A stretch of DNA of 20,861 nucleotides from a virus. Below are positions 3,432 through 19,127 of the stretch, piece after piece. Location of the stretch: IMG/VR virus record IMGVR_UViG_3300030380_002142, positions 1 through 20,861 of that record, one strand, 5' to 3'. How positions within the stretch are numbered: the first letter of the stretch is position 1; each line of letters begins with the position of its first letter. Below the pieces are notes generated by a model, which saw only the letters and a program-made list of their open reading frames with translations, was not told where the DNA came from and did not search any database. Made by a program: the position numbers and the translations under genes.

Positions 3432-5533
3432 TGGCATACGTAAAACCAAAGAAAAAATTATCGAAAGCGGAAGAAGAAAATTTAGCTGCGAATAATTGGG
3501 AGCGTTACACACGTGCCAGAGACGCAGGACATGATGACTATATGGAGATCGCTCAACAATGCGATCAATTTTATAGAGGGCAGCAATGGGATGCAGCTGA
3601 TGTTGCGGCATTAGATGATCAAGGACGACCAGCCCTCACCATAAACACAATCTTACCAACTATTAATACAGTTCTTGGCGAACAAAGTACAAGAAGAGCT
3701 GATATTAAATTCAAACCACGTGGCGGCGGTATGCAAGAAGTTGCAGATGTACTTACAAAAGTGTACATGCAGATTGCAGACAACAACAAACTAGATTGGA
3801 TTGAAGCGCAAGTTTTTGCAGATGGTCTTATACAAGATCGTGGCTGGTTCGATGTACGTGTAGATTTTTCAGATAACTATAAAGGCGAAGTACGAATTAC
3901 GGCTAAAGATCCTTTAGATATTATTATTGATCCAGATGCTAAGGACTACGATCCACGTAATTGGAATGAGATTTTTGAAACTAAGTGGATGAGTCTTGAT
4001 GAGATTGAAGAACAATATGGTCAAGATAAAGCTGACAGATTAAGAGTTGTTTCTGAGATGGGTACTTCCTATGGAACTGACTCTATGGAGTATCAAGAAC
4101 AAAGATATGGTGATACTGAAGAACATGAATACTCAAGTAATTACGCACACAATCCAGAAGAGGCCAGGGTTGTAAGATCAATCAGAGTTATAGAAAGACA
4201 ATATTATCAACTTAAAGACTGTATGTTTTACGTTGATCCTGTGACTGGTGATGAAAGACAAGTACCATACGATTGGAGCAAAAAGAAAAAAGAAGAATTT
4301 GCTGATGAGTTTGGGTTACATATTATTTCCAAAAAAGTCCGAAAGGTTCGTTGGACAGTCACCGCGGACAGAGTAGTATTATTCGATGACTGGTCACCAT
4401 ATAAACATTTTACCTTAGTACCATATTTTCCATATTTTAGAAGGGGTAGACCTTTTGGTATGGTCCGAAATTTAATATCTCCTCAAGAGCAATTAAATAA
4501 AATTTCTTCCCAAGAGCTACACATAGTCAATACCACTGCCAATAGTGGATGGATTGTAGAGTCAGGTTCCCTTACCGGAATGACTGCAGATGACTTGGAA
4601 GAACACGGTGCGGAAACTGGTTTGGTGCTCGAGTATAATCGAGGTTCCACTCCCCCTGGTAAAATACCACCTAACCAGATTCCCACCGGCCTTGATAGGT
4701 TAGGGCAAAAAGCCGCGTTAAATATAAAACAAATTAGTGGAGTTTCTGATTCTATGTTGGGTACTGATTCTCCTGAAGTATCAGGTGTTGCTATTCAACA
4801 AAAACAGAACAGAGGTATCTTGATGATTCAAGTGCCTTTAGATAACTTAACAAAAACTAGACAATATCTTGCAGAAAAAGTATTACAACTTGTTCAACAA
4901 TATTACACAGAGGAAAGAATTGTTCAGATTACAGATGAATCAGATCCTTACAAACCAAGTGTACCAGTGGCAATCAATGTAATGACACCTGAAGGTTATA
5001 TTGTTAATGATTTAACATTAGGGGAATATGATGTAGTTGTAGATACTATGCCAGCTAGAGACACATTTGATGAAGTTCAGTTTGCAGAAGTTATACAACT
5101 TAGATCAGCTGGTGTACCAATACCAGATGATATGGTTGTTGAGTATTCACACTTATCACAAAAAGGACTTATTGCTGATAGGATTAGAAAAGCTCAAGGA
5201 ACTGGCGAGCCTACTGAACAACAGATTCAGTTACAACAGTTCCAGATGGAAGCACAAATTAGACAAACACAACTTGAGATTGCTAAGTTAGAAGCTGAAG
5301 TAACTAGGTTACAATCAGAAGCTGAACTTAATATGGCTAAAGCACAATCTGCCGAAGTAGATCCACAGTTGAAGATTGCAGAATTACAAAGTAAAATTCA
5401 AACTAAACGTGAAGAACTTGATTTACGTGAAAGGTTATCCTCAATGACTAATGAAATGAGGAAGAACCAAAGTGATACAGCAGCAGCGGCTAGGTTAGCA
5501 ACTGCAGCAATGAAGCCAAAGTCTAAACAATAG
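3431..5533 (+). CDS. Portal protein, P22-like
   Basis: A 700-residue portal, close to the length of the P22 portal (725). It forms the dodecameric ring at the head vertex through which DNA enters and leaves, and it binds TerL and later the adaptor. The N-terminal pattern fits the P22 portal family: FYRGQQWDA near residue 48, then GRPALTINTILPTINTVLGE near 65-84, then the body with WFDVRVDF and DPLDIIIDPDA (about 156-169). The last ~110 residues (from about 590) are a long Q-, E- and K-rich coiled coil (EIAKLEAEVTRLQSEAEL) like the helical barrel that extends into the capsid in P22. Its start overlaps the terL stop by one base, with no clear Shine-Dalgarno, so reinitiation is likely. Confidence 0.92.
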   Translation: MAYVKPKKKLSKAEEENLAANNWERYTRARDAGHDDYMEIAQQCDQFYRGQQWDAADVAALDDQGRPALTINTILPTINTVLGEQSTRRADIKFKPRGGGMQEVADVLTKVYMQIADNNKLDWIEAQVFADGLIQDRGWFDVRVDFSDNYKGEVRITAKDPLDIIIDPDAKDYDPRNWNEIFETKWMSLDEIEEQYGQDKADRLRVVSEMGTSYGTDSMEYQEQRYGDTEEHEYSSNYAHNPEEARVVRSIRVIERQYYQLKDCMFYVDPVTGDERQVPYDWSKKKKEEFADEFGLHIISKKVRKVRWTVTADRVVLFDDWSPYKHFTLVPYFPYFRRGRPFGMVRNLISPQEQLNKISSQELHIVNTTANSGWIVESGSLTGMTADDLEEHGAETGLVLEYNRGSTPPGKIPPNQIPTGLDRLGQKAALNIKQISGVSDSMLGTDSPEVSGVAIQQKQNRGILMIQVPLDNLTKTRQYLAEKVLQLVQQYYTEERIVQITDESDPYKPSVPVAINVMTPEGYIVNDLTLGEYDVVVDTMPARDTFDEVQFAEVIQLRSAGVPIPDDMVVEYSHLSQKGLIADRIRKAQGTGEPTEQQIQLQQFQMEAQIRQTQLEIAKLEAEVTRLQSEAELNMAKAQSAEVDPQLKIAELQSKIQTKREELDLRERLSSMTNEMRKNQSDTAAAARLATAAMKPKSKQ

Positions 5534-5542
5534 GAGGTTAAT

Positions 5543-6640
5543 ATGGCTAAAAGTAAGAAAGCGGAAGCTACGTCCGAGGAAAATATTGTATTTGATAAGA
5601 TGCCAGGCGGGGATGCAAAAGCTCCTCAGTCTACAGACTCATTTACAGTCGATTTAGATTTTTCAGACGATCCGAAAACGGATGATGAAGAAGTAGTATT
5701 TCCGGAGGGACAAGAAATTGAAGAAATCTCACAAGAAGAACTCAAGGCTGAGGATGAAACTCCATCAGAAGAACCAGAAACGGAACTTGCAGAGCAAGAA
5801 GAAACAGAAACAGTGGAGAGTGAAGAAAGTACAACAGAAGCAACAGTGGAAACAGAGGACGAAGGAGCTGTACAGGAAGATGTACAACCAATTCAAGAAG
5901 AATCTACTGGATTAGATAAACAAAAAGCACCTATGGTGCCTAAATCTAGGTTAGATGAAGTGTTAGCAAAACAAAAAGCATTACAAAAACAACTAGATGA
6001 GCTCAATCAAGCTAAAGATAAAGCTGCTTTAGACGCTCCAGAGTATGATTTTGCGTCAAAAGAGGCTGAATACCAACAATTAGTGCTAGATGGAGAGACT
6101 GAAAAGGCCACTGCACTAAGAAATGAGATCAGAACAGCTGAAAAAGAGCAAATTATGTTTGAAGTACAGCAATCTACTACTCAAAACATTCAACAATCTA
6201 CTGAAGTGCAAGCAATTCAAGCAAAAGCAGTAGAACTTGAAGCAAAATACCCTATTTTTGATGTAAATAGTGCTGAACATAATGCAGATGTGTTAAAAGA
6301 AGCATTAGAGTTAAGAGATGCGTTCATGGCACAAGGTTATGAAGGCCCTTACGCGTTAGAAAGAGCAGTTAACACTACTTTAACTATGCACAAACCTGAA
6401 TTGTTGGAAGTAGAGACTGTTAAAACACCTGATCCAAAGGTTGCAGAGATAAATAAAAAGCAACAAGCTGCAAAAGTAACTAAAAAAATTGAAGCTTCTC
6501 AATCTCAACCCCCATCAATGAAAGGTGAAGGTGCCTCAAGTCGTGGCGACAAACCAGTAGATCTTACAAAGTTATCTCAAAAAGAGTTTGATGCTCTTCC
6601 AGAAGAAACTTTGAGAAGATTGCGTGGAGATTTCGGATAG
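5543..6640 (+). CDS. Capsid scaffold protein
   Basis: A 365-residue protein between portal and capsid genes, the standard place for a scaffold. Residues about 40-130 are extremely acidic (runs of E, D, T), residues about 135-220 are a K/Q/E-rich helical, probably coiled-coil, region, and the C-terminus has a basic helix-forming end (LSQKEFDALPEETLRRLRGD). Scaffolds of this type guide assembly of the capsid shell around the portal and then leave, with the basic C-terminal helix touching the coat protein. The ribosome site AGGAGG (5532-5537), 5 nt before ATG, is one of the strongest in the window, as expected for a protein made in high copy. Nothing suggests a fused protease. The call is based on position, composition and C-terminal pattern, since scaffolds diverge quickly. 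Confidence 0.88.
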   Translation: MAKSKKAEATSEENIVFDKMPGGDAKAPQSTDSFTVDLDFSDDPKTDDEEVVFPEGQEIEEISQEELKAEDETPSEEPETELAEQEETETVESEESTTEATVETEDEGAVQEDVQPIQEESTGLDKQKAPMVPKSRLDEVLAKQKALQKQLDELNQAKDKAALDAPEYDFASKEAEYQQLVLDGETEKATALRNEIRTAEKEQIMFEVQQSTTQNIQQSTEVQAIQAKAVELEAKYPIFDVNSAEHNADVLKEALELRDAFMAQGYEGPYALERAVNTTLTMHKPELLEVETVKTPDPKVAEINKKQQAAKVTKKIEASQSQPPSMKGEGASSRGDKPVDLTKLSQKEFDALPEETLRRLRGDFG

Positions 6641-6654
6641 TATAGTATACTATA
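6641..6654. repeat. Perfect 14-nt palindrome TATAGTATACTATA
   Basis: It starts on the base after the scaffold stop codon. It is AT-only apart from its central G and C. It could be an operator, the -10 part of a promoter, or a weak hairpin. No oligo-T follows it, so it is not a standard intrinsic terminator. Confidence 0.5.
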
Positions 6655-6797
6655 TACATACGTCCGTTAAGACGATACTTAACCCTCGTCGTAGAGGTAA
6701 AAAAACGTTATCGTCAATCAAGACGTAAAACATGATCGAGCTCGTGTTCGTCACAATCACGTAAACGTTTCCCAACGACAAAGGGTAGACGGGTAAA

Positions 6798-6820
6798 AGT
6801 CGCCCCAGAATATAGCGACT
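6798..6820 (+). promoter_or_regulatory. Leader hairpin before the capsid start
   Basis: Arms AGTCGC (6798-6803) and GCGACT (6815-6820) pair perfectly around an 11-nt loop. An outer TAAA/TTTA pairing can extend the stem after a bulge. It ends 29 nt before the capsid ATG, leaving the ribosome site (AAAGG, 6838-6842) free, so it may stabilise the mRNA rather than block translation. Confidence 0.4.
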
Positions 6821-6849
6821 GGTTAACTTTTAACTATAAAGGTATATAA

Positions 6850-7992
6850 ATGGCTAATACAAACTTTAGCGCGTTGACCAGTGAACAGCTCACCATCTGG
6901 TCTCGTGATTTTTGGCGTGTTGCGAGAAATATGTCCTTCATTAATCAATTCGCAGGTAGCGGACCTAACTCAATGGTTCAGGAAATTTCTGAACTTACTC
7001 AATCCGAGAAAGGAGCAAGAGCAGTATTAACACTTCTTGCTGACATGACTGGAGACGGTATTGTTGGGGACAACACTTTAGAAGGAAATGAAGAGGCACT
7101 AAGATCTTTCGACATCGTCGTGCAGCTTGATCAATTAAGATTTGCTAACAGACTTTCTGGTAGATTGGCGGATCAAAAATCAGTTGTAAATTTCCGTGAG
7201 CACTCAAGGGATGCCCTTGCTTATGCAATGGCTGATAGGATAGACCAACTTGCGTTCTTATCGCTTGCTGGTATTGCTTACACCAATAAAAACAATGGTG
7301 CTTTAAGATCTGTTCTTACTTCAGGACAGAACCTTGGAGATCTTGCGTTTAATAGTGATGTAACTGCACCAACAAGTAACAGACACAAGAGAATTAGTGG
7401 TAATGACCTTGCCGCTGGTTCTGTTACATCTATTACTGCTACTGATAAACTTAAGTACAGACATATTGTCGATCTAAAAGCTTTTGCTAAAGATCAGTAC
7501 ATTAGGGGTATGAGAGGTGCTGGTAATGAAGAGATGTATCATCTGTTTGTTTCTCCGCAAGTAATGGCTGATCTTAAACTCGATTCAGACTTCTTATCAA
7601 ACGTAAGAAGCGCTGGAATCAGAGGACCTAACAACGAACTATTTGCTGGATCTTCTAGCTTAATGGTTGACGGTGTTATGGTTCACGAGTTTAGACACGT
7701 ACCAAATACATCTGGTGCCTTATCTGGATCCAACAGTAATGCTGGTTCTGCTGGGTACAAAGGTGGATCAGGTGCTGATGTTGATTATGCATCATGTCTA
7801 TTCTGCGGTGCTCAAGCACTTGCAATGGCTGATATTGGTCTTCCAGAAATAGTTGAAGATACTTTCGACTATGGAAACCAAAACGGTATTTCAATTGGTA
7901 AGATTTTTGGTCTTAAGAAGCCTAAGTACAATTCTGACATAACTGGTCAGGACGAAGACTTTGGTGTTATAAGATTAGATGTCGCATTCTAA
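6850..7992 (+). CDS. Major capsid protein, N4-gp56/DUF4043 type
   Basis: A 380-residue coat protein. The block GDNTLEGNEEALRSFDIVV (about 76-94) followed by a QLRFA segment, then FREHSRDALAYAMADRIDQ (about 117-135) and LAGI, is the pattern of the N4-gp56 (DUF4043) capsid family, which has an HK97-like fold. The C-terminal part has PEIVEDTFDYG and ends DEDFGVIRLDVAF. It would form the icosahedral shell with the scaffold from the gene before it. AAAGG (6838-6842) lies 7 nt before the ATG. The gene is framed by a 209-nt leader upstream and an intrinsic terminator downstream, so it can be expressed more strongly than its neighbours. A glycine/serine-rich stretch at about 290-315 probably forms a surface loop. 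Confidence 0.92.
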   Translation: MANTNFSALTSEQLTIWSRDFWRVARNMSFINQFAGSGPNSMVQEISELTQSEKGARAVLTLLADMTGDGIVGDNTLEGNEEALRSFDIVVQLDQLRFANRLSGRLADQKSVVNFREHSRDALAYAMADRIDQLAFLSLAGIAYTNKNNGALRSVLTSGQNLGDLAFNSDVTAPTSNRHKRISGNDLAAGSVTSITATDKLKYRHIVDLKAFAKDQYIRGMRGAGNEEMYHLFVSPQVMADLKLDSDFLSNVRSAGIRGPNNELFAGSSSLMVDGVMVHEFRHVPNTSGALSGSNSNAGSAGYKGGSGADVDYASCLFCGAQALAMADIGLPEIVEDTFDYGNQNGISIGKIFGLKKPKYNSDITGQDEDFGVIRLDVAF

Positions 7993-8006
7993 TTGTGATA
8001 ACATTT

Positions 8007-8044
8007 TACAGGTGGCTAGCTTGACGTTAGTCACCTGTATTTTT
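8007..8044 (+). terminator. Intrinsic terminator after the capsid gene
   Basis: Arms TACAGGTGGCTA (8007-8018) and TAGTCACCTGTA (8028-8039) form a 12-bp stem with one G-U pair around a 9-nt loop, followed by five T (8040-8044). It lies 15 nt after the capsid stop. Partial read-through would supply the downstream neck and tail genes at a lower level, which is a common phage arrangement. Confidence 0.88.
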
Positions 8045-8059
8045 ATTAAGGAGTAAAAT

Positions 8060-8272
8060 ATGAAAGTAGTATTCGAACAAGATAGTTATGTCGCGTCTAC
8101 TTGGGGCCATGCTGAACATTTTAAAGCTGGCGAGCCTAAGGAAGTAGGTAAAGATTTTGGAGTGCTTTGTTTACAGAATGGTGCAAAAGAATATGAAGAA
8201 CCAAAAGTAGAACAACCTAAAGCAAAAGCACCCGCGAAGAAAAAAACAGTCGCTAAAAAGAAAGTTAAATAG
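8060..8272 (+). CDS. Small basic-tailed protein, 70 aa, function unknown
   Basis: It starts 15 nt after the capsid terminator with a strong AAGGAG (8048-8053), 6 nt before the ATG. Residues 1-47 form a small folded-looking unit (MKVVFEQDSYVAS, then HFKAGEPKEVGKDFGVLCLQNGAKEY). Short proteins with this kind of FKAGE and CLQNGAK pattern occur beside head genes in many phages and are thought to be minor head or head-completion proteins. Residues 50-70 are low-complexity, made of K, A, P and V (AKAPAKKKTVAKKKVK), like histone H1-type tails, so binding to DNA or to the acidic scaffold is plausible. No direct evidence shows this. It is followed by the adaptor gene after 2 nt. Confidence 0.72.
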   Translation: MKVVFEQDSYVASTWGHAEHFKAGEPKEVGKDFGVLCLQNGAKEYEEPKVEQPKAKAPAKKKTVAKKKVK

Positions 8273-8274
8273 TT

Positions 8275-8982
8275 ATGGGTACAATTACTGGAGCAAATAT
8301 AATATCTAGAGTACAGGATACTCTCCAAGATACTACAAGTGTAAGATGGCCAGAAGCAGAGTTGCTTCGTTATATAAATGACGCTCAAAGAGAAGTCGTT
8401 AATCTTAGACCTGATGCTTCAGCTACTACATCAAATGTTCAATTAGTTACTGGTACAAAACAAACACTACCAACAACTGGATTAAGGTTAATAAAAGTAA
8501 CTAGAAATATGTCTGCTGCTTCTGGTAGTGCTACTGGTGGTAGGGCAGTTCGTATTGTAGATATAGATATTCTTAACACTCAAGAACCTGATTGGAATGA
8601 TCCAACAGTTACTGGGGATGCCGCACACGGCACAACTGTAAAACATTACATCTTTGATCAAGATGACCCTAGGAGTTTTTATGTATATCCAGGAGTTTCT
8701 GGAAATGCTTTTGTAGAGATTGTGTTTTCTAAATCTCCTACTGATTTAAGTAGTACATCTTCAACAATAGATATTGATGATACTTTTGCAAATGCCATAA
8801 TTGATTTTGTTTTATTCAAAGCATACTTAAAAGATGCTGAATACGCAGGCAATGCTCAAAGATCAAATCAACACTATGCATTATTTAACAATAGCTTAGG
8901 ACAAAGCACTGCAGCGTCAAATGTAACTAATCCAAATTTTGACTACGCGGGGTCTAAAGCAGTTCCGAATGTAGGAGGATAA
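8275..8982 (+). CDS. Phage adaptor protein, DUF6682-like
   Basis: A 235-residue protein that closely fits the DUF6682 'phage adaptor' pattern. It opens with an N-terminal helix ending in a segment with RWPEAELLRYINDAQREVV then LRPDA (about 24-48), followed by a GTKQTLP beta part, GLRLIKVTRNM, GRAVRIVDIDIL and DPRSFYVYP (about 131-139). It closes with a helical DYVLFKAY-like segment with KDAEYAGNAQRS and HYALFN. Such proteins form the ring under the portal that joins head and tail (gp4-like in P22, gp8/gp11-like in T7). It begins 2 nt after the preceding stop with only a weak ribosome site, suggesting coupled translation. Confidence 0.82.
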   Translation: MGTITGANIISRVQDTLQDTTSVRWPEAELLRYINDAQREVVNLRPDASATTSNVQLVTGTKQTLPTTGLRLIKVTRNMSAASGSATGGRAVRIVDIDILNTQEPDWNDPTVTGDAAHGTTVKHYIFDQDDPRSFYVYPGVSGNAFVEIVFSKSPTDLSSTSSTIDIDDTFANAIIDFVLFKAYLKDAEYAGNAQRSNQHYALFNNSLGQSTAASNVTNPNFDYAGSKAVPNVGG

Positions 8983-8986
8983 CAAT

Positions 8987-9670
8987 ATGGCGAGTTTTAG
9001 TTCGCTAGTAAAAGAGGTACTACCCTATGTACCCGGTTGTCCTGACACTCTTGTAGAATCTAATTTAAGAGCAGCAACGATTGAACTTTGTGAGAAGTCT
9101 AAGGCGTATGTTGTAGAGTTAGATGTTATTACAAGTATTAGTGGAGTGTTCGAATATGAATTCGACCAGCCCACTGGTACTGATGTACATCAAATACTCT
9201 GGATGACTTATGATGGTGAAGACATGGACCCCACCAGCCCACGTAGTTTAGAACTAAATTACCCTGACTGGCGTGACCGAACTGGTATTCCAGAAGTTTT
9301 CTTACAACAAAACCCAGACATGTTTTATGTCGCACCTGTCCCTAACGTAACTAGAACAAATGGATTTAGAGTTAGTGTAGCTCTTAAACCTACACGATCT
9401 TCAAACAACATTGATACAGATTTTTCAACAGATTATAGAGATGGAATTATATTTGGAGCCCTATGGAGACTCTTAAGAATACCCGCTAGAGAATGGAGTA
9501 ACCCTAGCGCAGCTGCTGATTACAGAAACCTTTTTGATGAACAGGTTAAAGAAGCAGAGGCAAGAGCTAGAGGTGGGGATCTTGGAGTAAGAAGGCTAGT
9601 TAAATATAAAGGAGTTGGATTAAATCCAAGAAAGAGGTATAGAAGGTACGGCAAGGAGATTGATTATTAA
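8987..9670 (+). CDS. Neck or tail-joining protein, second adaptor-like protein
   Basis: A 227-residue protein with a helical N-terminus (LVKEVLPYVPGCPDTLVESN, then LRAATIELCEKSKAYVVELD), a beta-rich middle (FEYEFDQPTG, VHQILWMTYDGEDM, VFLQQNPDMFYVAPVP) and a helical C-terminus (DYRNLFDEQVKEAEARARGGD). This helix-sheet-helix layout, with 'VLPYVPGCPD' near the start, is typical of small head-tail joining proteins that follow the first adaptor in podophages, and it partly echoes the preceding gene, so the two may be distant paralogues. A strong AGGAGG (8974-8979) lies 7 nt before the ATG. The exact place in the neck cannot be told from sequence alone. Confidence 0.72.
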   Translation: MASFSSLVKEVLPYVPGCPDTLVESNLRAATIELCEKSKAYVVELDVITSISGVFEYEFDQPTGTDVHQILWMTYDGEDMDPTSPRSLELNYPDWRDRTGIPEVFLQQNPDMFYVAPVPNVTRTNGFRVSVALKPTRSSNNIDTDFSTDYRDGIIFGALWRLLRIPAREWSNPSAAADYRNLFDEQVKEAEARARGGDLGVRRLVKYKGVGLNPRKRYRRYGKEIDY

Positions 9671-10094
9671 CCAGGAGGGGTTTATCGAACCTCAAATTGC
9701 AGATATAAGACAATGCTGGGGTGAGATACGAAAAGGGATCGAATCAATTATAGATGCAGATCCAAATCTAACTTTTATACCAGAGGATGTATATAGTGAA
9801 TGCGTCAATGGTAGAGCTCAACTGTTTACATCCCCAATAGGATTTTTGGTTTTAACCACAGAGGTAGACCCTTTTACTAGTGATAAAACACTATTAATTT
9901 GGATAGCTTATGTACACGAAACTGGTAAACATAATTGGATTAAACATGTACAATGGTTTGAAGAGCTTGCACGTAATGCAGGTTGTAAATTTATTGAGGC
10001 TAGATCCTCTGTTCCAGAAATGGAAGAGTATGCAATTATGCAAGGGTTTAATTTAAATACTAGAGTATATACAAAGAAGATAGATGAGCAATAA
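9660..10094 (+). CDS. GNAT-like acetyltransferase of the tail region
   Basis: A protein of about 136-144 residues. It follows the pattern of short GNAT-like proteins found among podophage structural genes: an N-terminal IEPQIADIRQCWGEI helix, a central strand LLIWIAYVHE, a helix WFEELARNAGCKFIEARS, and the C-terminal EYAIMQGFNLNTRVYTKKI in which the A...GF turn and final strand are typical of GNAT folds. Substrate and role in the virion cycle are unknown. The start is a problem. The only usual start codon in frame at the front is TTG 9660, just 1 nt after AAGGAG (9653-9658), too close to use. A very strong AGGAGGGG (9673-9680) instead points to ATC 9684 or a nearby codon. The frame overlaps the preceding gene by 11 nt and the next by 11 nt. 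Confidence 0.72.
   Translation: MIINQEGFIEPQIADIRQCWGEIRKGIESIIDADPNLTFIPEDVYSECVNGRAQLFTSPIGFLVLTTEVDPFTSDKTLLIWIAYVHETGKHNWIKHVQWFEELARNAGCKFIEARSSVPEMEEYAIMQGFNLNTRVYTKKIDEQ
9673..9680 (+). promoter_or_regulatory. Strong Shine-Dalgarno that has no AUG after it
   Basis: AGGAGGGG begins 2 nt after the stop of the preceding gene. No ATG, GTG or TTG in the acetyltransferase frame lies at a workable distance; the in-frame ATC at 9684 is 5 nt after AGGAGG. This suggests a rare ATC start or a base change from ATG. Confidence 0.6.
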
Positions 10095-10737
10095 ACCAAA
10101 ACAACAAGATTACAAGCCAAGTGAGGCGGAAAAAACTCAAGCAGCTGTTTCAAAAGCTGAGAAGGATTACTTTGATCAAAAATATGGTCCGTTGTTGCGT
10201 GAAATGCGCGACCTTTCGGAGAAAGAAGATTTTTCTGCTACTGCAAAAGGTAGAGCACAAGCAGATACCATGCAGGCATTAACTTCTAGACCTAGTATAC
10301 AAGCCGCTAGATCTGTGGATTCCGCAGCTAACTTAGCTTCAGCCGCAGGTTCACAACAAGCACAAGCTGACTTTCAAGCGTTACAAGCAAAGAGACAACG
10401 TCAAGTTGGTGTATTAGGAACTGCTAGAGGTCAAGCTGCAGATGCTACAACCGGTTTATCTAGAGCTGCACAAATTCAATCTACTAAAGATTTAGAATTT
10501 GCAAAAGCTAGACAACAAGAACGTGATGCAAGATTTGCTGCTGGTTTAAAATTAGCTACTAACCTCGGGGCACAAGGTGCAGAAAATATACAAGGGGGCG
10601 GAAGTTTCTTTACACCTGCAGGATTAGAAACAGCTAGAGGCAAAGGTGAGGATCGAGTAAGCGGACTAACAGGTAGATTAAGAGTAGGGTCATATGGTAA
10701 CTATGATCCCGTAACTGGTAAAAAATATGGTAGCTGA
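10084..10737 (+). CDS. Putative internal virion protein, 217 aa, Ala/Gln-rich
   Basis: An Ala-, Gln- and Arg-rich protein, largely helical (SEAEKTQAAVSKAEKDYFDQ near the start, then repeated AQAD, QQAQADFQAL and QAKRQRQ segments), with a glycine-rich C-terminus (about 165-217) ending YDPVTGKKYGS. No enzyme motif or membrane segment is visible. Small Ala/Gln-rich helical proteins just before giant virion proteins are typical of podophage ejection cassettes (compare P22 gp7/gp20/gp16 and T7 gp14/gp15/gp16), which is the basis of the call. It overlaps the acetyltransferase gene by 11 nt, and only a weak purine stretch precedes its ATG, so translation is probably coupled. Confidence 0.6.
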   Translation: MSNKPKQQDYKPSEAEKTQAAVSKAEKDYFDQKYGPLLREMRDLSEKEDFSATAKGRAQADTMQALTSRPSIQAARSVDSAANLASAAGSQQAQADFQALQAKRQRQVGVLGTARGQAADATTGLSRAAQIQSTKDLEFAKARQQERDARFAAGLKLATNLGAQGAENIQGGGSFFTPAGLETARGKGEDRVSGLTGRLRVGSYGNYDPVTGKKYGS

Positions 10738-10747
10738 AGGCGCAATC

Positions 10748-11338
10748 ATGAATGGATTAATGCGAGGGTATAACTCACCATATGGTTATGGCGGAAATGC
10801 TAGTTTTAGTACAGCACAGTTACCTAATGTTGAAGATCCTGAACAAGTTTACGCAGACATTACGCGTAGTGATTACGAAGATTATGTAAGAGACTACAGA
10901 GGTTTTGAAGAAAGGCTAATAGATTCTAGAAATGACACTAGTTTAATTGATAGGGCTGAAGTTGACTCAGCTGAACAAAATAGAATAGCTAGAGAAATAC
11001 AACAAAGAAATATTGAAAGATATGGTGGGGCTGGTTTAACCGCTGTACAAAGACAAGAACAAGCAAAAGCATTATCTCTAGGTGGAGCTACTAACCAAGC
11101 TGGCATGTTAAATAATGCTAGAATAGCTCAAAGAGAAGTAAATCAAGCAACACTTGCCGATTTAATTAATATCGGACAAGGTGTTAACAGAAATGCTTTA
11201 CAAGGATTAGGAGATGCATCGGCTATGGCAGCTAGAAAAGAATCAGCATACAGAAATGCTAAAGCAGCACATAGGTCTCAAATGATGGGACTAGCTGGTT
11301 CTTTAGGAGCAGCCGCTATTTTAGCGTTTGCAATATAA
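10748..11338 (+). CDS. Putative internal virion protein with hydrophobic C-terminus, 196 aa
   Basis: I place the start at ATG 10748 because GAAGG (10736-10740) lies 7 nt before it. An earlier ATG at 10727 would add 7 residues and overlap the previous gene by 11 nt, but has no good ribosome site. The N-terminus is Gly/Tyr-rich (RGYNSPYGYGG), the middle is helical and charged (YEDYVRDYRGFEERLIDSR, QNRIAREIQQRN), and the last 18 residues form a hydrophobic, glycine-containing segment (MMGLAGSLGAAAILAFAI) that could insert in a membrane. A small protein with a C-terminal membrane segment in this position recalls T7 gp14, which makes the outer-membrane part of the ejection channel. That comparison is by layout only. 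Confidence 0.6.
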   Translation: MNGLMRGYNSPYGYGGNASFSTAQLPNVEDPEQVYADITRSDYEDYVRDYRGFEERLIDSRNDTSLIDRAEVDSAEQNRIAREIQQRNIERYGGAGLTAVQRQEQAKALSLGGATNQAGMLNNARIAQREVNQATLADLINIGQGVNRNALQGLGDASAMAARKESAYRNAKAAHRSQMMGLAGSLGAAAILAFAI

Positions 11339-11347
11339 GAGAATAAA

Positions 11348-13531
11348 ATGGCAGTAAATATACAAGGCATAATCCAAAACGCACTATCGGACTTTAGTGG
11401 CACTATGGCTCAAAAAGAGTCGAGAATGAATCTTGCCCAACAACGTAGAGCTACTACCCAACGAGAAGACACTAATAACTATTTAGTTACTAGTGGTGTG
11501 GTTGGGTTAGATGATGATGGTAACTTTAATGTAGATTTAGAAAAAGCTCACATGCAAGGTGGTGATAGATTTATAAATCTTTTAAATGAAGAAGCAAAAG
11601 CCGGTAGAAAATTTACAGATGTTAATACTGGTGAGACAGTTACTGGTAAGTTTGAAGACTTACCTAGCGCTGTAAAAGTAGGAGAAGGTGATAATGCTGC
11701 TACTAATTATATATTAACAATCACTACTCCTGATGGTAGGAAAGTTCCTGTTACTACAGGCAGATCCAATGACCCTTCAGATGGTCCAGCTGTTTTAGAT
11801 CAATCTTCATTAGAATTAATTTATGAAAGTGCTATTTTAAATAGTATTGGTAAATATGGCATTTCAGGAACTGCTGCAGGCATGCTTGATAATATGAATT
11901 TTAATAATTCACAAGCTAAAGCTCAATTACAAGCTGCAGATGCATTACAAAATGAAGAAAACAGTCAAGCGCTTGTAAGTTTAATAGGATCATTGGGCCC
12001 AAACCTAAAAAGTATAAATCCAAATAGAGGTACTACTAAGTCTGGATTACCTGAAGTTCCTTTAGACAGCACACCTGAAGGTACAACAAAACCTGTAACA
12101 ACCACTGAAGAAGGTACAATCAAAGGTACATCAGATCAGTTTTATGTATTAGATACTAGTCAAAAAGAGGTACAGGATGCTTTACCTTTAATAAATAACA
12201 TTCAAGCAGGACAAAGCTACTCAGCTGAAGAAATAGATCAACTTTCTAAAGGTTTAAGTCCTGGATTCAGGTCTGCTTTTAAAAAGAATTTTTCTTTCAA
12301 TAGCCGTTTACTAGAAGTAAATGCAGAAAAAATTGCTGAGTTAGAAGCTAAAGAAGATAAGTCTCCAAAAGAAGAAAGAGAATTAGCGAAGTTACAGAGA
12401 AGAAGAGAAAGTTATCTTATACCTCAACAACAAAAACAGATAGATAGAGTTAGAAAAAACATTGCAGATGATACTGCAGCACAACAAGCGGCTGATGCAA
12501 AAGCAACAGAGAAAGTAAAAAAGCAAATAGCTACTAAAGAAGCACTTTTAAACAATCCAAAGCTTAATCTTAGTGAAGGTAGGAGAAAAGAGATACAAGC
12601 CGAGGTAGACGAACTGAAAGGTGGTATGACTCAACAAGATACTGGTGAAAATGTATCGTTTGAATTACCAGAGATTCCTACTGATGCAGAAGGAGCAGCT
12701 AAATGGTTTAGTGATCCAGCTAACCAAGCAACTATTGATCAGTTAGATCAAGAAAAAGTGACTGAGGTCAGACAGCTTTTACAGAAATTCAATATTAATA
12801 GTAAAGAAGAACTTATTGATGGTGTTAAGACTGGGAAGATTAGTCAAAATGCTTTTAGGAACGCTGCTAAATTAATTTCTTGGTCTATAGTTGATAAAAA
12901 CGGACAAAAAGACCCACAGTTATCTGCTAATTTGTATGCAGGCATGATTAATGAAGCTTTAACTGGTAGCCCAGGTGTGACTTCTACTCAAATGGCAAAT
13001 GCTCAAACTGCTAGAGATAGGCTACAGTTCGAAATGAAAAAGTATTATGACGGCTTAACTGATGAAAAATATAGTGGACTAAAGAGCTTATATGATCTTG
13101 GGGCAAAAGGTTTTGATAGCCCTGAGTTTATACAAAAATTAAAAGCTGAAACTACTCTGTTCTTAAAAGATAAAAGATTTGAAGACCTAACTACTACAGA
13201 TAAAGAATTAATGGATGGTATTTTATCTCAAGCTCTATTAGAAGCAGCCAATAAATCAGGATCTGATTCTGTGGCTGACTGGTTTGGAGATGTTTTCCTT
13301 AGGGGTTCTGCTGGCGATACTTTAGGTAACACTATGGATAACGTTGCAATAGAATATGATAAAGATCCAAATACAAATGCAGATGCAAGGCCAGTTCGTT
13401 TGATATTTACTAGAAGCAGAGGTGGCTCACAAGTAGAAGCAGATCAAAGTCTAGATTGGAATGACGTTACAGAAATCATTGGCCAAGGCGAACTTACCAA
13501 CTACTTATTAAGTAGAGCGAAAAGGAGATAG
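11348..13531 (+). CDS. Putative large internal virion protein, 727 aa
   Basis: No family is recognised. The first 60 residues are helical (NIQGIIQNALSDFSGTMAQK, then RMNLAQQRRATTQRED), followed by a beta-rich, Gly/Asp/Thr-rich part (about 50-165) with VTTPDGRKVPVTTGR-like strands. Residues about 314-425 form a long highly charged coiled coil (EKIAELEAKEDKSPKEEREL, then KLQRRRESYL and KATEKVKKQIATKE), and the rest is mostly helical. There is no catalytic motif, signal peptide or membrane segment. It is followed after 4 nt by the giant metallopeptidase protein, so the two are probably made together. By position and helical nature it fits the middle protein of an ejection set (compare T7 gp15). 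Another possibility is an assembly chaperone for the giant protein. Confidence 0.62.
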   Translation: MAVNIQGIIQNALSDFSGTMAQKESRMNLAQQRRATTQREDTNNYLVTSGVVGLDDDGNFNVDLEKAHMQGGDRFINLLNEEAKAGRKFTDVNTGETVTGKFEDLPSAVKVGEGDNAATNYILTITTPDGRKVPVTTGRSNDPSDGPAVLDQSSLELIYESAILNSIGKYGISGTAAGMLDNMNFNNSQAKAQLQAADALQNEENSQALVSLIGSLGPNLKSINPNRGTTKSGLPEVPLDSTPEGTTKPVTTTEEGTIKGTSDQFYVLDTSQKEVQDALPLINNIQAGQSYSAEEIDQLSKGLSPGFRSAFKKNFSFNSRLLEVNAEKIAELEAKEDKSPKEERELAKLQRRRESYLIPQQQKQIDRVRKNIADDTAAQQAADAKATEKVKKQIATKEALLNNPKLNLSEGRRKEIQAEVDELKGGMTQQDTGENVSFELPEIPTDAEGAAKWFSDPANQATIDQLDQEKVTEVRQLLQKFNINSKEELIDGVKTGKISQNAFRNAAKLISWSIVDKNGQKDPQLSANLYAGMINEALTGSPGVTSTQMANAQTARDRLQFEMKKYYDGLTDEKYSGLKSLYDLGAKGFDSPEFIQKLKAETTLFLKDKRFEDLTTTDKELMDGILSQALLEAANKSGSDSVADWFGDVFLRGSAGDTLGNTMDNVAIEYDKDPNTNADARPVRLIFTRSRGGSQVEADQSLDWNDVTEIIGQGELTNYLLSRAKRR

Positions 13532-13535
13532 TGGT

Positions 13536-16500
13536 GTGGCCGTCAAAGATACATTTTTCAGTGAAATAGCAAAAACTGCTGCTGGAGATATAGAGCAAGA
13601 CACTTTTCAATCCGAACAAGCTGCTAGTAGAGCAGAATTAACAGATCCCGTACAAGTATTCAAACAAGGTGTTGTATCAGGTGGTTATAATTTAGCTGCT
13701 AATATTGAGTATTTCAAAGGTATTGGTAACTCTATTCAAGGAGACCAAGATGCCTTAGAAAAAAACTTATATGCTGCTGAAAAATTAGAAAGAGAATCTG
13801 GCATGGCTATGGCAGATGTTCAACAGTTTGATGAGTTTCTAGAAAATCCTACCTTTTTAGGTTTTATAAACCAAGTATCTAGTGCTACTGGACAGTTTGC
13901 TCCATCTGCAATTGCAAGTATTGGTGCCGCAGTATCTGGTGCCGGTGCAGGTGTAGCTGTTGTTGGACTTACTGGTGTAACAAAAGGTTTAGTTAATAAT
14001 GTTGCAAAGAAAGAAGTAAAAAGAGCTTTGACTAAAAAAATGAAAGGGCAAACTCTTAATCCAGATGAAGAAGATTTAGTAAAGGGAGCATATGACTCAT
14101 ACAAAAAACTTAGATTAGGATCAGGTGCAAAAGGTGGAGCTGTTGCAGGTGCTGTAGCTCAAGAATACCCACAAGGCGCAGGTATTGCGTTTGGTACTTT
14201 TGCTGATCAAGACATGACTGATCCAGTGCAAGCTTTTCAATCTTTAGGTATTGGAGTTCCTTTTGCCGCAATTGGAGTGGGTGCAGAAGCCTTAGTCTTC
14301 AAAGGGTTAACTAATATTGTTAAGAAAAAAGGTGCTGGCCCTATTCATAAGAGAGTTTTAGGAGCTATTGGAAGTAGTGCTGGTAGAACAGGAGCTATTG
14401 AAGGTGGTACTGAATTAGCACAAGAAGAGCTTACAATCCAACAAAGGTTTGCAATTGATGAAGATTATCAAGCTTCACAAGCTAAACTAGATAGAGCACA
14501 AGCTTTATTTGCTGGGTTTTTTGGAGGTGTTGGTATTGGTGCTGCTGGTGGAACTATTGCTGGTACTTTAAATGCAGTTACTGGTAATACTATTGTAGAT
14601 AAAGCTAGACAACAGGTAAAAGAAGGATATGAAGCTGAGCAGTATCAAGACTTTTTAAAAGAAAGATATGGTACTACTGAACTTGGTGAAGTTGCTACAG
14701 AGCCTCAAAATTGGATAAAAGCACAAATAGAAGCTATGTTAGACCCTACTAACGGAAAAGATTCTGTATTTATAGATAGGGGAAGTTTAGAAACTTTAGG
14801 TAAAGTGTTAGCAGCTAATCCTCAGTTAGCTGAAAGATTAGCAGAAATACCACAACACTCTGCAGCTCAAGATGGGCCGCAGTCTGCAGGAGTATTATTT
14901 AGTTTAGATGGTGCAAAAGTAAACAGATTTAAAGAAGTTACTGATGAAAACCTTTATAACGGGACTGCTCAAGATGCTGTATTAGTTGATATTTTAGGGT
15001 ATGCACATGGTAGGTTACCTGATGCAGACAGAGTTGTAGAAGTTAGAGATGCTAATGGAAATGCTATTTGGTATCAATCTACAACTATAGACCAAGAAGC
15101 AAATGTAAAAACTAAAGCTAAACAATTATTTCCTGACTCCGAAGTTATATCTACTGATTTAGATGATCACTTATCTAGAAGAAACCAAGACCCTATAGCT
15201 AGGGGGTCAGGTGAATTTGAGTTAGATGATGAAGGAGAAATAGTTCAGGATGATGGCGCAGAAGAACTAGCACAACAAGAAGCTTTGCAAGAATTTCAAT
15301 TTGAAGTGCCTAATATTGCAGAGAACGAGCCCGGTATAAGACAAGCCCAAACCAGTGCTAGAGATATTGTTTCTGGAGTACAGAAAGGAGATGGTTGGGC
15401 AAGGGGTGCGTCAAGAGATGCCGAAGTTCAAACAGAAGCTCAATCTTATTTCCCACCATTTACTAGATACTCTGATCAAATGAACAGAGATTTAGAACGT
15501 GGTTTTTATTCTGATGCTTTGTTAAGAGCATACACAAACTTTTCAAAAGCTAATCCAAATAACATTTATGTTATACAACCAATAGATTCTGCGGCAGAAA
15601 ATGTAAGATACGAAATAAAAAGACTAAACACTACTGATGGTCAAGTAGAAGTAGGTTTAGGTATACCAACAGTTGTAACAGAAGCTATAGAAACTGAAGA
15701 CTCTAGAGTTTTCAAAGGACAAAGCCCTACAGGTTGGAAAATAAAAACACCTGGATCTAATCAGTTTAGACCTGTTTACATGCCAGCTTTAACTATCTTA
15801 GGTAGAAGAATAAATACAAGATTAGGTGAAGCTACACAAGGAGCTAGCGATTTACAGTCTGCTCAAGAAGGGTTCAATGCTATATATGCTGAACTTTTAG
15901 AACAAGGATATGAACTTCAGTTCCCTGGACAGGAACAGTTTAATTTAGATTTTAGTAGATCTAACGCTGTTGTATATAGAGTTGGTGCTCAGAACTATTC
16001 TTACAAACAACTACAACCAGGAAGCAGGGGTGTAACACCATTTAGGGGTAATCAAGAATCTGACTTCAATAGTCTTAAATCACAAGTTCAAGAGTCAGGA
16101 ATTGTAGAACAAGAAGGATTACAAGAAGAATTTAATAACATTGAAACTTTAGAACAGTTAGAAACTTTTGTTGAGAATGAGATAAATCCAAACATACCTG
16201 ATCCTCAACAAAAAATTATGACACCTTCTAGATTTGATCAAGGAGAGTTTTTTGAACAAGACACTGGCGACTTTGCTGAAGCTACACCTGAACAAGAAAG
16301 AACTGCTGAATATAAAGCAGCTACTTTTTATGAATTAGGTAGCCCAGAACGTAGAACACAATCACCAAAACCTGTAGATATTTTCCCATCTTTAGCACAA
16401 AGACTTGGAGATACTCAGTTTGTTAATAGGATTTCTAATATTGTTAAAAACAACTTTAAGTTAAAAAAGAAAATAAGAATTTTCCCTTCTGATGTAAATT

Positions 16501-19127
16501 TTGATGAAGTATTACCGTTAACAAAAAGTGTCATACCAAATCTTAATTTTATAAAAGCACAACAAAATATCTTAAATAACTCTAATGATAGAGCTAGGTT
16601 CATTTCGTTTGGTAATGAAAATATTATTTTAGTAAAAATTAGTCCTAATCCTGGAAAAGTAGAACAAGGGTTAGCAATGATTGGTATTGCTCATGAGTTT
16701 GGACATGCTGTTTTCCAACAAGAGTTAGATAACTCTTTGGATAGCCCAATGGGTGACAGGTTATATCAAGCATTTTTAACTGATAGAAATAAAGAAGGAG
16801 CTCCAGAGTTATACCAAGAAGGTAATGAACATGCATACGAAGAATGGTATTCCGATAAAGTAGCTTCTTACTTATTTAGTGAACTTAGAAAACAAAATGT
16901 AAAAGCTAAAAATGGAGTAGAGTCTTACTTTAAAAGAATAGCAGATAAAATTAGACAAGCATTTGCTGCAGTAAAAGCAGAAGTGTTTGGTAGATTTCAA
17001 CAAAATCCTGACTTCAATGACTACATACAAAATGTTGTTAAGTCATATAAAGATGGAGTCAAAGACCCTGTACGTAGTCCAGCTAGTTATGAACAAAAAC
17101 GGTATGCAAGGGCTATGATTGATGGGGCTGTTCCTAATACTTTGCAATCTGCTGCTAATAGAAGTCTTTTACAGTCTTTAAAAAGAACTGCTACTGAGTT
17201 ATTAAATGACCCTACTTCTGCTCCTAGAGTATTGAAGAAGATTTTTTATCCTGCAGATAACTTTCTTAGAAGCCTTGGAAAAGATAAAGGTATTGGAAAG
17301 AAACTTGCAGATATATTTTATACACCTAGTCAAAGTAAAGGTGCTACTGGTTTACTAACAGCTAACATTGTATTAGCAAATGCAGAAGTCAATAAACTTA
17401 GTGCTATCTTAGAACTAGATGATGTTGCGCAAATTACTCCAGAAGCCGAAGCTATTTTGTTAGAGGTAGAAGATAATACAAAATCTAATGAAGAACTTAG
17501 TGATAAAGCAAGACAAGTAAGAGAGTGGCTATCTGATTTCTATGATAGACAAGATTTAGGTAAGATTTTTAACAACAAAAAAATTGTTAATTATTTTCCA
17601 AGATTAGTAGCTTTATATGAGATTTCTGAAAATGCAGAACTACAAGATAAGTTAGCTGAGTTATTAGTAAAAAATAATGAAGGTCTAACAGAAAAGTCAG
17701 CTAGAGAAACTGTTGAAGCTTTGATTGCAGATCCAGATGGTGCATTACTAGAAGGCAATGAAACTGATGGTGAAGGTAGGTTTAACTTAGGTTTAGCTAA
17801 AGCAAGAGCTGAGTTATTTAAAAATATACCTACAAAAGAAATGAGAGATGCAGGACTATTAGAAGCACCTGCAATCGCGGTTCGTAAATATTTAGCAAAC
17901 AGTATCAAACGTTCTGAGTTTAACAAACGTGGTGGTGCTAAAGTTGTTGCAGATTTAATAAGTCAACTCCCTGAGAATGAACAAGGACACGCTACTGATG
18001 CAGTAGATGCAATAATGGGTAGAGTCAATCCTAACATGGGTGGTACTTTTAGATTTATAAACAGTTGGGGGTTAGTTGCAAACATTACAACGCTTCTGGC
18101 ATTTGCTGTGTTTGCGTCTTTGCCTGACTTTGCAGGCCCAGTTCTTAGATCTAAAGAGTTTGGTGGTTTTAGTAACTTTGGTAAAGAGTTAGCTAATTAC
18201 TTTAACAATAAAGAAGAAGCTGCAAGGTTTGCAAAAGACATAGGTGTAGTATCTACAGATGCTATAAATACTATGTATATCAACGCGGGTGAGTTAGATT
18301 TTATGTCTGGTAGCATTAAGTTACCTGGTGGTAAGGAAGTAACTCCTAAACAAGTAGCAGAAGGATTCTTTAAATATACTGGATTAGAGTGGTATACAAG
18401 ATTTACAAGAATTTTTGCTGCAGGTATGGGACGTAGGTTTTTATTAGAACATCAAAAACGTGCAGATGAAGGAGATGTAAGATCTCAAAGATACTTACAA
18501 GAGCTAAATGTAACTTCTGAACAGATAAAAGCTTGGAATGATTCTCAGAATGTTGAAGCACATCCTGAAGTTAAGTTAGCTTTAGCTACTTTTGTAGATG
18601 AATCTATTGTAAGACCAAATGCTGCAGAAAGACCTGTGTGGGCTTCTGACCCTAGGTTAGCTTTGATTTGGCAACTTAAATCATTCTTTTATGCATATGG
18701 TAAAAACATCGTAGGTGGTTTCTTAAGAGAGTCATCTAGCAGAGTGAAAGAGGGTGCAGGTTTAAATTCAGCTGCATTACCTCTGCTTTTAGCTGCAAGT
18801 ACGTTATTACCGTTAAGTATGTTAGGATTAGATTTAAGAGAAAGGTTTAAAGTTGGACTAGCATGGGTTTTACCAGGAGTAAGCCCAGATGATAAGAACT
18901 ATAGAAAGTCTCAAGATATGGAATGGGATAAATATAGTTTTGAAATACTAGATAGGTCTGGAGTTTTTGGTCCTTTTGCTCTTGCAATGCCTTTGTTCAT
19001 GGAGAGTAAAAGATTTGGTGATCCTTTTTGGGTAGGTCCTTTGGGCCCATCTGTAGAAAAAGGATATGATTTACTAACAGGAGATTTAGATTTTAAAGAT
19101 ATCACTCCTATCTATAATCAAATTTAA
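13536..19127 (+). CDS. Giant virion protein with gluzincin metallopeptidase domain, 1863 aa
   Basis: The start is GTG 13536, with AAGGAG (13522-13527) 8 nt upstream, 4 nt after the previous stop. The front carries several Gly/Ala-rich hydrophobic stretches (about 108-152, 195-224, 235-258, 324-349) that could insert in membranes. At 1053-1057 is HEFGH (HExxH) in a helix, followed by EEWYSD with E1103 and D1107 as the ExxxD third-ligand pattern of gluzincins (thermolysin-like). C-terminal to this are a long helical part with NYFPR near 1350, a hydrophobic segment (about 1509-1533), a helical part resembling polyvalent-protein associated domains such as LPD38, and a last hydrophobic segment near 1744-1766. 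I infer an ejected internal protein like T7 gp16, with a peptidase where T7 has a transglycosylase. No transglycosylase motif is visible. Confidence 0.85.
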   Translation: MAVKDTFFSEIAKTAAGDIEQDTFQSEQAASRAELTDPVQVFKQGVVSGGYNLAANIEYFKGIGNSIQGDQDALEKNLYAAEKLERESGMAMADVQQFDEFLENPTFLGFINQVSSATGQFAPSAIASIGAAVSGAGAGVAVVGLTGVTKGLVNNVAKKEVKRALTKKMKGQTLNPDEEDLVKGAYDSYKKLRLGSGAKGGAVAGAVAQEYPQGAGIAFGTFADQDMTDPVQAFQSLGIGVPFAAIGVGAEALVFKGLTNIVKKKGAGPIHKRVLGAIGSSAGRTGAIEGGTELAQEELTIQQRFAIDEDYQASQAKLDRAQALFAGFFGGVGIGAAGGTIAGTLNAVTGNTIVDKARQQVKEGYEAEQYQDFLKERYGTTELGEVATEPQNWIKAQIEAMLDPTNGKDSVFIDRGSLETLGKVLAANPQLAERLAEIPQHSAAQDGPQSAGVLFSLDGAKVNRFKEVTDENLYNGTAQDAVLVDILGYAHGRLPDADRVVEVRDANGNAIWYQSTTIDQEANVKTKAKQLFPDSEVISTDLDDHLSRRNQDPIARGSGEFELDDEGEIVQDDGAEELAQQEALQEFQFEVPNIAENEPGIRQAQTSARDIVSGVQKGDGWARGASRDAEVQTEAQSYFPPFTRYSDQMNRDLERGFYSDALLRAYTNFSKANPNNIYVIQPIDSAAENVRYEIKRLNTTDGQVEVGLGIPTVVTEAIETEDSRVFKGQSPTGWKIKTPGSNQFRPVYMPALTILGRRINTRLGEATQGASDLQSAQEGFNAIYAELLEQGYELQFPGQEQFNLDFSRSNAVVYRVGAQNYSYKQLQPGSRGVTPFRGNQESDFNSLKSQVQESGIVEQEGLQEEFNNIETLEQLETFVENEINPNIPDPQQKIMTPSRFDQGEFFEQDTGDFAEATPEQERTAEYKAATFYELGSPERRTQSPKPVDIFPSLAQRLGDTQFVNRISNIVKNNFKLKKKIRIFPSDVNFDEVLPLTKSVIPNLNFIKAQQNILNNSNDRARFISFGNENIILVKISPNPGKVEQGLAMIGIAHEFGHAVFQQELDNSLDSPMGDRLYQAFLTDRNKEGAPELYQEGNEHAYEEWYSDKVASYLFSELRKQNVKAKNGVESYFKRIADKIRQAFAAVKAEVFGRFQQNPDFNDYIQNVVKSYKDGVKDPVRSPASYEQKRYARAMIDGAVPNTLQSAANRSLLQSLKRTATELLNDPTSAPRVLKKIFYPADNFLRSLGKDKGIGKKLADIFYTPSQSKGATGLLTANIVLANAEVNKLSAILELDDVAQITPEAEAILLEVEDNTKSNEELSDKARQVREWLSDFYDRQDLGKIFNNKKIVNYFPRLVALYEISENAELQDKLAELLVKNNEGLTEKSARETVEALIADPDGALLEGNETDGEGRFNLGLAKARAELFKNIPTKEMRDAGLLEAPAIAVRKYLANSIKRSEFNKRGGAKVVADLISQLPENEQGHATDAVDAIMGRVNPNMGGTFRFINSWGLVANITTLLAFAVFASLPDFAGPVLRSKEFGGFSNFGKELANYFNNKEEAARFAKDIGVVSTDAINTMYINAGELDFMSGSIKLPGGKEVTPKQVAEGFFKYTGLEWYTRFTRIFAAGMGRRFLLEHQKRADEGDVRSQRYLQELNVTSEQIKAWNDSQNVEAHPEVKLALATFVDESIVRPNAAERPVWASDPRLALIWQLKSFFYAYGKNIVGGFLRESSSRVKEGAGLNSAALPLLLAASTLLPLSMLGLDLRERFKVGLAWVLPGVSPDDKNYRKSQDMEWDKYSFEILDRSGVFGPFALAMPLFMESKRFGDPFWVGPLGPSVEKGYDLLTGDLDFKDITPIYNQI

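Follow-up and report, generated by a model that had tools for sequence, protein, structure and literature searches.

We found that the largest gene on a podovirus genome fragment encodes a giant protein in which a predicted zinc peptidase lies between two modules with membrane-like segments. In the reading that we favor, to which we assign a probability of about 55%, this 1863-residue product would be an ejection protein in the position of T7 gp16, polyvalent-like in its construction and with membrane-inserting ends, whose zinc peptidase would act in the host cytoplasm early in infection. The window, meaning the whole stretch of DNA that was analyzed, is a 20,861-base IMG/VR record and holds the structural half of a podovirus genome, with genes for a terminase, a P22-type portal, a head protein and a pair of SU10-type adaptors. 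Its head protein shares 54.5% identity with the one in Pseudomonas KPP25-type phages, and its terminase shares 48.9% with the one in Aeromonas phage phiA008. Judged by its sequence, the virus is a KPP25/phiA008-like podovirus with a short tail, and its relatives come mostly from marine metagenomes. The features discussed below are these:

1782..9670, plus strand: head-tail cassette with terminase large subunit, P22-type portal, scaffold-like protein, major head protein and two SU10-type adaptors (Pfam and PHROG matches for the portal, head and adaptor genes)
10084..11338, plus strand: two small genes (10084-10737 and 10727-11338) in a gp14-like position; the second weakly matches phrog_596 and phrog_8003, a virion structural family
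11348..13531, plus strand: 727-residue protein in the position of gp15 (internal virion protein C), placed by gene order only
13536..19127, plus strand: large ejection-type protein of 1863 residues with a GTG start (ORF and translation, a Shine-Dalgarno-like AGGAGA, IMG/VR relatives of the same layout)
13653..15155, plus strand: N-module, residues 40-540, with long helices (~1-380) and then a compact alpha/beta domain at 391-550 (AlphaFold, hydropathy, cluster profiles)
15156..16376, plus strand: variable slot, residues 541-947, here with the shared middle module (~610-830) only (cluster slot lengths, Pfam)
16377..17135, plus strand: gluzincin-type peptidase domain, residues 948-1200 (alignments, AlphaFold model, zincin structural neighbors, weak family matches of relatives)
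16692..16706, plus strand: HEFGH, residues 1053-1057, the two predicted zinc-ligand His and the general-base Glu (sequence, conservation)
16839..16856, plus strand: EEWYSD, residues 1102-1107, with E1103 as predicted third zinc ligand and D1107 conserved (sequence, conservation)
17073..19124, plus strand: C-module, residues 1180-1863, with conserved hydrophobic segments at 1511-1529 and 1747-1765 (alignments, virion-protein homology)

Downstream of the adaptors, four smaller genes are followed by the 1863-residue ORF, which is the largest gene and ends the internal-protein cassette after a gp15-sized gene; close relatives have the same order. AGGAGA stands at 13523-13528, a few bases upstream of the GTG start. 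The preceding 727-residue protein found no match among phage records. Gene order, together with homology to annotated virion proteins of KPP25-type phages, suggests that the large product is a virion protein, and its gene position points to a T7 gp16-type role. The likeness to the large ejection protein of T7-like phages that had been suggested earlier agrees with this place in the gene order: as with T7 gp16, this is the last and largest protein of the cassette, and hydrophobic regions flank its middle part. Unlike T7 gp16, the window protein has no N-terminal transglycosylase and carries its peptidase in the middle, and the searches made found no sequence relationship between the two. Elsewhere in the window, a 156-residue ORF upstream of the terminase genes (804-1274) has paired Cys motifs and looks HNH-endonuclease-like by eye. 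An open-ended ORF at 19804-20859 with diverged repeats (LAKADT...TE/S) probably encodes a protein of tail-fibre type and is truncated where the contig ends; a DNA tandem repeat was looked for in it and none was found.

The 1863-residue protein contains a single HExxH motif, HEFGH. For a protein of this composition the expected count is 0.004, only 0.26% of shuffled sequences contained one, and HExGH followed by an EEW..D-like motif was seen in 0 of 5000 shuffles; the combination of HEFGH and EEWYSD is not due to chance. A bare HExxH is weak proof because the head protein of the same window carries HEFRH (7684-7698), which is kept in near relatives and has no evident peptidase meaning, and it is conservation that decides. 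The gluzincin-type motif described in the earlier note (HEFGH at 1053-1057 with E1103 and D1107 in EEWYSD) is present at these residues, and H1053, E1054, G1056, H1057, E1103 and D1107 were invariant in 22 of 22 diverse full-length relatives. That an ordinary structural protein simply acquired an HExxH by accident, as the head protein illustrates, is accordingly a reading with a negligible chance of being right: the invariance, the co-conserved E1103 and D1107, the predicted fold and the low chance expectation all speak against it, and conservation refutes it.

A profile search with the domain showed that at least 237 IMG/VR stretches encode relatives, from which 80 loci were kept. The same six residues were invariant in a 63-sequence domain alignment; all 63 rows had fitted the pattern used to find the second motif (EEWYSD), 45 of them without a match to the HExxH pattern, and therefore only the conservation of HExxH is unbiased there. 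Because of this bias, a second set was gathered through the C-module alone, which is unbiased towards the peptidase motif. Here HExxH and the Glu were kept in 49 of 63 distinct peptidase regions, the residue combinations being H-E-H-E-D (45), H-E-H-E-N (4), K-E-N-N-D (13) and H-E-E-E-D (1). HExxH with a Glu on the following helix, the mark of gluzincins, was found in the sequence, in its conservation and in the order of secondary-structure elements of the model. Taken as a feature of sequence and predicted fold, the zinc-peptidase domain is real.

AlphaFold modeled residues 923-1202 with a mean pLDDT of 75.9 (~80-92 over most of the core) and a pTM of 0.71. In the model, three strands precede the HEFGH active-site helix, which is followed by a helix with E1103 near its start, and the predicted topology is zincin-like. 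The fold comparison that had been proposed as a check came out in the same direction: the best PDB neighbors by VIA-align were mostly zincins (M61 aminopeptidase, ColH, MMP-11, Wss1 and ColG, with lethal factor and MATCAP lower), at Z scores of 6.3 or less, so that the zincin match of the model is suggestive only. Foldseek of the peptidase model against the PDB gave no match at E<=0.001. In a library of viral structures, one unnamed protein matched at E 1e-11, and entries named 'large polyvalent protein' and 'PolyVal metallopeptidase' were among the lower matches.

Family searches reached the domain through its relatives. Pfam and PHROG scans of the window protein's own sequence reach no peptidase family, and a match to PF13464 RodZ_C at residues 782-825 was below the cut-off and was discarded. 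The weak Pfam matches of relatives were to M78, M32, DUF4344, M48 and ATLF, all of them families of zinc-peptidase type; of 63 relatives, 29 matched M78 weakly, with E 4e-5 at best, and the window sequence gave no such match. Unlike in M78 proteins of the ImmA/IrrE kind, there is no sign of the transcription-regulator setting where ImmA/IrrE are known to work. When the peptidase profile was run against PDB sequences, the only matches were weak ones to matrix metalloproteases (E 0.2), and the C-module profile found nothing there.

Profile searches over 77 clusters (formed at 85% identity, with module profiles cut from the alignment and a few clusters truncated by contig ends) revealed a constant layout: a helical N-module, a variable slot, the peptidase and a two-part C-module. 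The N-module was found in 73 of the 77 clusters and was not detected in phiA008. Its AlphaFold model (m722782f46bc9) has a pLDDT of 77 and a pTM of 0.49, and its PDB neighbors were membrane helical bundles at Z 5-7, which are unspecific and do not discriminate. At the end of the N-module, the compact alpha/beta domain of residues 391-550 (14706-15185) was modeled mostly with very high confidence. The C-module is homologous to the virion structural proteins phrog_30152 and phrog_6958 and to proteins of KPP25, tf, phiA008 and CRP-810, and the KPP25 and tf homologs are annotated as virion structural. Hydrophobic segments at both ends of the protein had been claimed previously. This holds well for the C-terminal pair, which is kept at 1511-1529 in 22 of 22 and at 1747-1765 in 21 of 22 relatives; among the N-module stretches (about 124-143, 237-255 and 323-341), family hydropathy showed the segment at 124-142 to be conserved in 50 of 60 relatives and the other two to be weaker. 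On the basis of hydropathy and helix content, both modules may insert into membranes.

The slot is the variable part. Its length ranges from 318 to 1682 residues across clusters, and both it and the peptidase tend to be more variable than the flanking modules. In relatives, Pfam identified cpYpsA (E 1.6e-27) and YspA (2e-12), both SLOG domains, an AlkB-type 2OG-Fe(II) oxygenase (2e-14), NADAR (3e-8) and HHH_5 in the slot, cargo whose functions would all make sense in the cytoplasm; DUF7831 and FtsK gamma also occur there. SLOG (cpYpsA, YspA) and NADAR domains were seen in the giant ejection-type proteins of L162 (1167-1312), L130 (1405-1509 and 1791-1849) and L058 (middle region), and, if injected, could possibly serve in counter-defense against NAD-derived signals. 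The slot of the window protein gave no Pfam hit and no recognized cargo, leaving the peptidase as the only recognized domain. Family scans of the window protein gave no lysozyme or SLT hit; in two relatives, L035 (residues 17-141) and L087 (residues 16-107), a Phage_lysozyme domain stands N-terminal to the N-module in the same chain as the HExxH domain.

These two relatives bear on the earlier suggestion that the peptidoglycan-cutting domain of T7-like phages is replaced here by one that cuts proteins. The suggestion fails because L035 and L087 carry lysozyme and peptidase in one chain, and because the peptidase is internal in the window protein and the transglycosylase of T7 gp16 is N-terminal (PMC8954989); a peptidase that replaces lysozyme is ruled out by this co-occurrence. 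A related possibility is that the peptidase clears a path through the envelope by cutting proteins of the periplasm or membrane, in the role otherwise played by a peptidoglycan hydrolase. Its location in an ejection protein and the lack of a detected lysozyme in the window protein would suit such a role, which we consider improbable given the pairing of both enzymes in L035 and L087 and given that the peptidase, instead of being N-terminal, shares the space between the membrane-like modules with cargo of cytoplasmic type. N-terminal peptidoglycan hydrolases of gp16-type proteins are in any event phage-specific and not universal (PMC8954989). T7 gp16 has two putative membrane regions, the stretch between them is modeled in the host cytoplasm, and its N-terminal transglycosylase is periplasmic (PMC8954989). 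A lysozyme ahead of the N-module, as in L035 and L087, reproduces the T7 gp16 order with the periplasmic part first (PMC8954989). The SNase at the N-terminus of the phiA008 large protein is at odds with a strict rule that N-terminal cargo is periplasmic.

It has been proposed that polyvalent proteins with zincin domains are injected together with the DNA (PMC5512222). The protein family described here resembles the polyvalent proteins with zincin-like MPTase domains (PMC5512222) in being very large phage proteins, in having a domain with HExxH and Glu, and in the swappable enzymatic and nucleic-acid domains of relatives. Fusion to unrelated domains of this kind was found in relatives, with lysozyme, SNase, SLOG, NADAR, 2OG oxygenase and HHH, while the window protein has the peptidase alone. 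Unlike the polyvalent MPTase proteins, the family has a fixed ejection-protein frame and no MPTase-PolyVal or Pfam LPD match, and its member in the window is without recognized cargo. MPTase-PolyVal (PF18818) gave no match at E<=10, with the control ringing in 3 genomes below the cut-off, and the search for LPD38 (PF18857) returned nothing but its control was equally silent. Iyer et al. 2017 described 12 clades of MPTase (PMC5512222), and PF18818 alone may therefore not cover all of them. The earlier note had seen the polyvalent link in the C-terminal half. There it found no support, as Pfam scans of the C-module listed no LPD family (the LPD38 control being silent); the link is borne out instead by the architecture of the whole family, its cargo and the viral structure matches. 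We conclude that the window protein is probably built like a polyvalent protein, by its architecture and the cargo of its relatives and not by detectable sequence membership.

A third system for comparison is coliphage N4, whose giant vRNAP gp50 comprises an N-terminal region of membrane type, the polymerase, a subdomain C1 with HExxH and a large, mostly helical C2 (PMC12633501). The order of parts is the same as in our family, and the giant N4 protein is ejected; unlike N4 gp50, the window protein contains no polymerase family. Profile comparison by hhalign detected no homology, with probabilities of 6% for the HExxH domains and 1% for the C-modules; a distant relationship beyond the reach of profiles is possible.

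Homologs in named phages and in bacteria extend the family. The large virion proteins of Pseudomonas phages KPP25 and CRPAP1904 and of Aeromonas phage phiA008 have an HExxH in the same place (HESMH, HELGH). By hhalign, the peptidase of phiA008 is clearly homologous (98%), and the KPP25 domain is too diverged for profile alignment (0.3%). The publications consulted on KPP25-type phages and the podovirus PhiGT1 held no peptidase information for the corresponding large protein. The C-module was also found in six bacterial genome records, four of which are MAGs or uncultured assemblies. Four of the six, Motiliproteus coralliicola included, have an HExxH domain matching the peptidase profile; the remaining two are Parendozoicomonas, with a HELAH domain at the same place, and a MAG contig of the type that has lost the zinc site. 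Homologs of both the HExxH domain and the C-module lie on large isolate contigs of Motiliproteus coralliicola C34 (L192) and Parendozoicomonas haliclonae (L196), probably in prophages, and might serve as a starting point for laboratory work.

In the C-module set, the zinc site has been lost in one clade. In 13 sequences (L133, L135, L136, L138, L141, L154, L156, L158, L162, L165, L166, L167 and L172), both His and the third-ligand Glu are lost (KELGN ... ENF), and the same KELGN motif occurs in contig L191, binned as a Neomarinimicrobiota MAG. In the C-module tree these 13 form one clade with full support, with the half-dead L130 as its sister, and the clade is derived. The earlier note had held that relatives without the His and Glu residues would speak against a peptidase; such relatives do exist (13 of 63), yet they belong to this one derived clade. 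The joint disappearance of the ligands in a single clade with an intermediate sister is as expected for a functional zinc site. In the clade itself, catalysis is, on sequence grounds, dispensable, and purifying selection still acts on the domain (dN/dS ~0.04-0.30, with synonymous sites largely saturated).

These values are what one would look for if the zincin-like fold served mainly for docking or autoinhibition where cargo and C-module meet, with the zinc site ancestral or stabilizing: a whole clade lacks the three ligands and keeps its domain at dN/dS ~0.04-0.30 (synonymous sites largely saturated), and the N4 HExxH subdomain C1 is part of the CTD that autoinhibits the polymerase (PMC12633501). 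We regard such a structural or regulatory role as rather unlikely: HExxH and Glu are strictly invariant in most members of the family and are also intact in the phiA008 and Motiliproteus homologs, and a purely structural role would not require the general-base Glu1054.

Alternatively, the peptidase might act in cis as a maturation or release protease, cutting the ejection protein itself or partner internal proteins, so that N-module and cargo part from the C-module either ahead of ejection or following it. In all clusters it sits at the junction of variable cargo and invariant C-module, and Iyer et al. propose a role of this kind for polyvalent zincins, citing P1 DdrB processing (PMC5512222). 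In Roseobacter phage CRP-810 (L012, 677-9218), the C-module is in a separate gene, gp34, adjoining the peptidase-bearing gp35, which has a match to ART-PolyVal below the threshold and two HExxH domains, each resembling the family profile (78% and 89%). Against this, the clade without a zinc site retains its fused slot and C-module, and the vRNAP of N4, whose parts come in the same order, is packaged without being processed (PMC5512222). Furthermore, the peptidase domain of L113 is 49-57% identical to those of close relatives (L106, L108, L116, L119 and others), with slot, C1 and C2 at 64-94% and the C-terminal half of the C-module at 87-94%, a pattern indicating that the peptidase domain was locally replaced; tight co-evolution with a cis cleavage site is not suggested. 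The dead clade and the L113 replacement argue mildly against obligatory cis-cleavage, and we accord cis-processing a low probability.

Returning to a peptidase that acts in the host cytoplasm, we infer ejection, topology and proteolytic activity as follows. The 1863-residue protein would be packaged in the phage head. Upon infection, its N-module, which is helical and hydrophobic, would insert into the cell envelope together with the hydrophobic portion of the C-module. The slot and peptidase between them would then be displayed in the host cytoplasm, an arrangement also proposed for T7 gp16-C. We place slot and peptidase there because the parts are ordered as in T7 and N4, because N- and C-modules have hydrophobic segments, because lysozyme precedes the N-module where present and because the slot cargo is of cytoplasmic type. 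There the zinc peptidase would cleave a small number of proteins, perhaps a single one, at an early stage of infection. A host protein is one leading candidate; the ejected proteins are the other, and cutting them might free slot cargo or the C-module. Several results weigh against this reading: the modest Z scores and the Foldseek search without a PDB match, the failure of the window sequence to reach a curated peptidase family, the absence of recognized cargo from its slot, the clade that does without catalysis, and the N-terminal SNase of phiA008.

More tentatively, what may be represented here is a large, mostly uncultivated podovirus family, with many marine members, in which a giant ejection protein is a delivery frame whose membrane modules place a cargo slot and a zinc peptidase in the host cytoplasm before phage gene expression, with cargo and peptidase exchanged between strains and with one lineage carrying a non-catalytic, still selected peptidase and large cargo. 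If true, phages of this family would inject a ready-made protease as part of the same protein that makes a path for their DNA, and relatives would also inject NAD/ADP-ribose-, nucleotide- and DNA-directed enzymes. The same order of cargo, HExxH domain and C-terminal part would have arisen in N4-type phages and in the present family, and the frame would be a naturally occurring scaffold for delivery in which the slot is defined. Finally, the live and dead natural variants would offer a clean comparison for the question of what polyvalent metallopeptidases cut.
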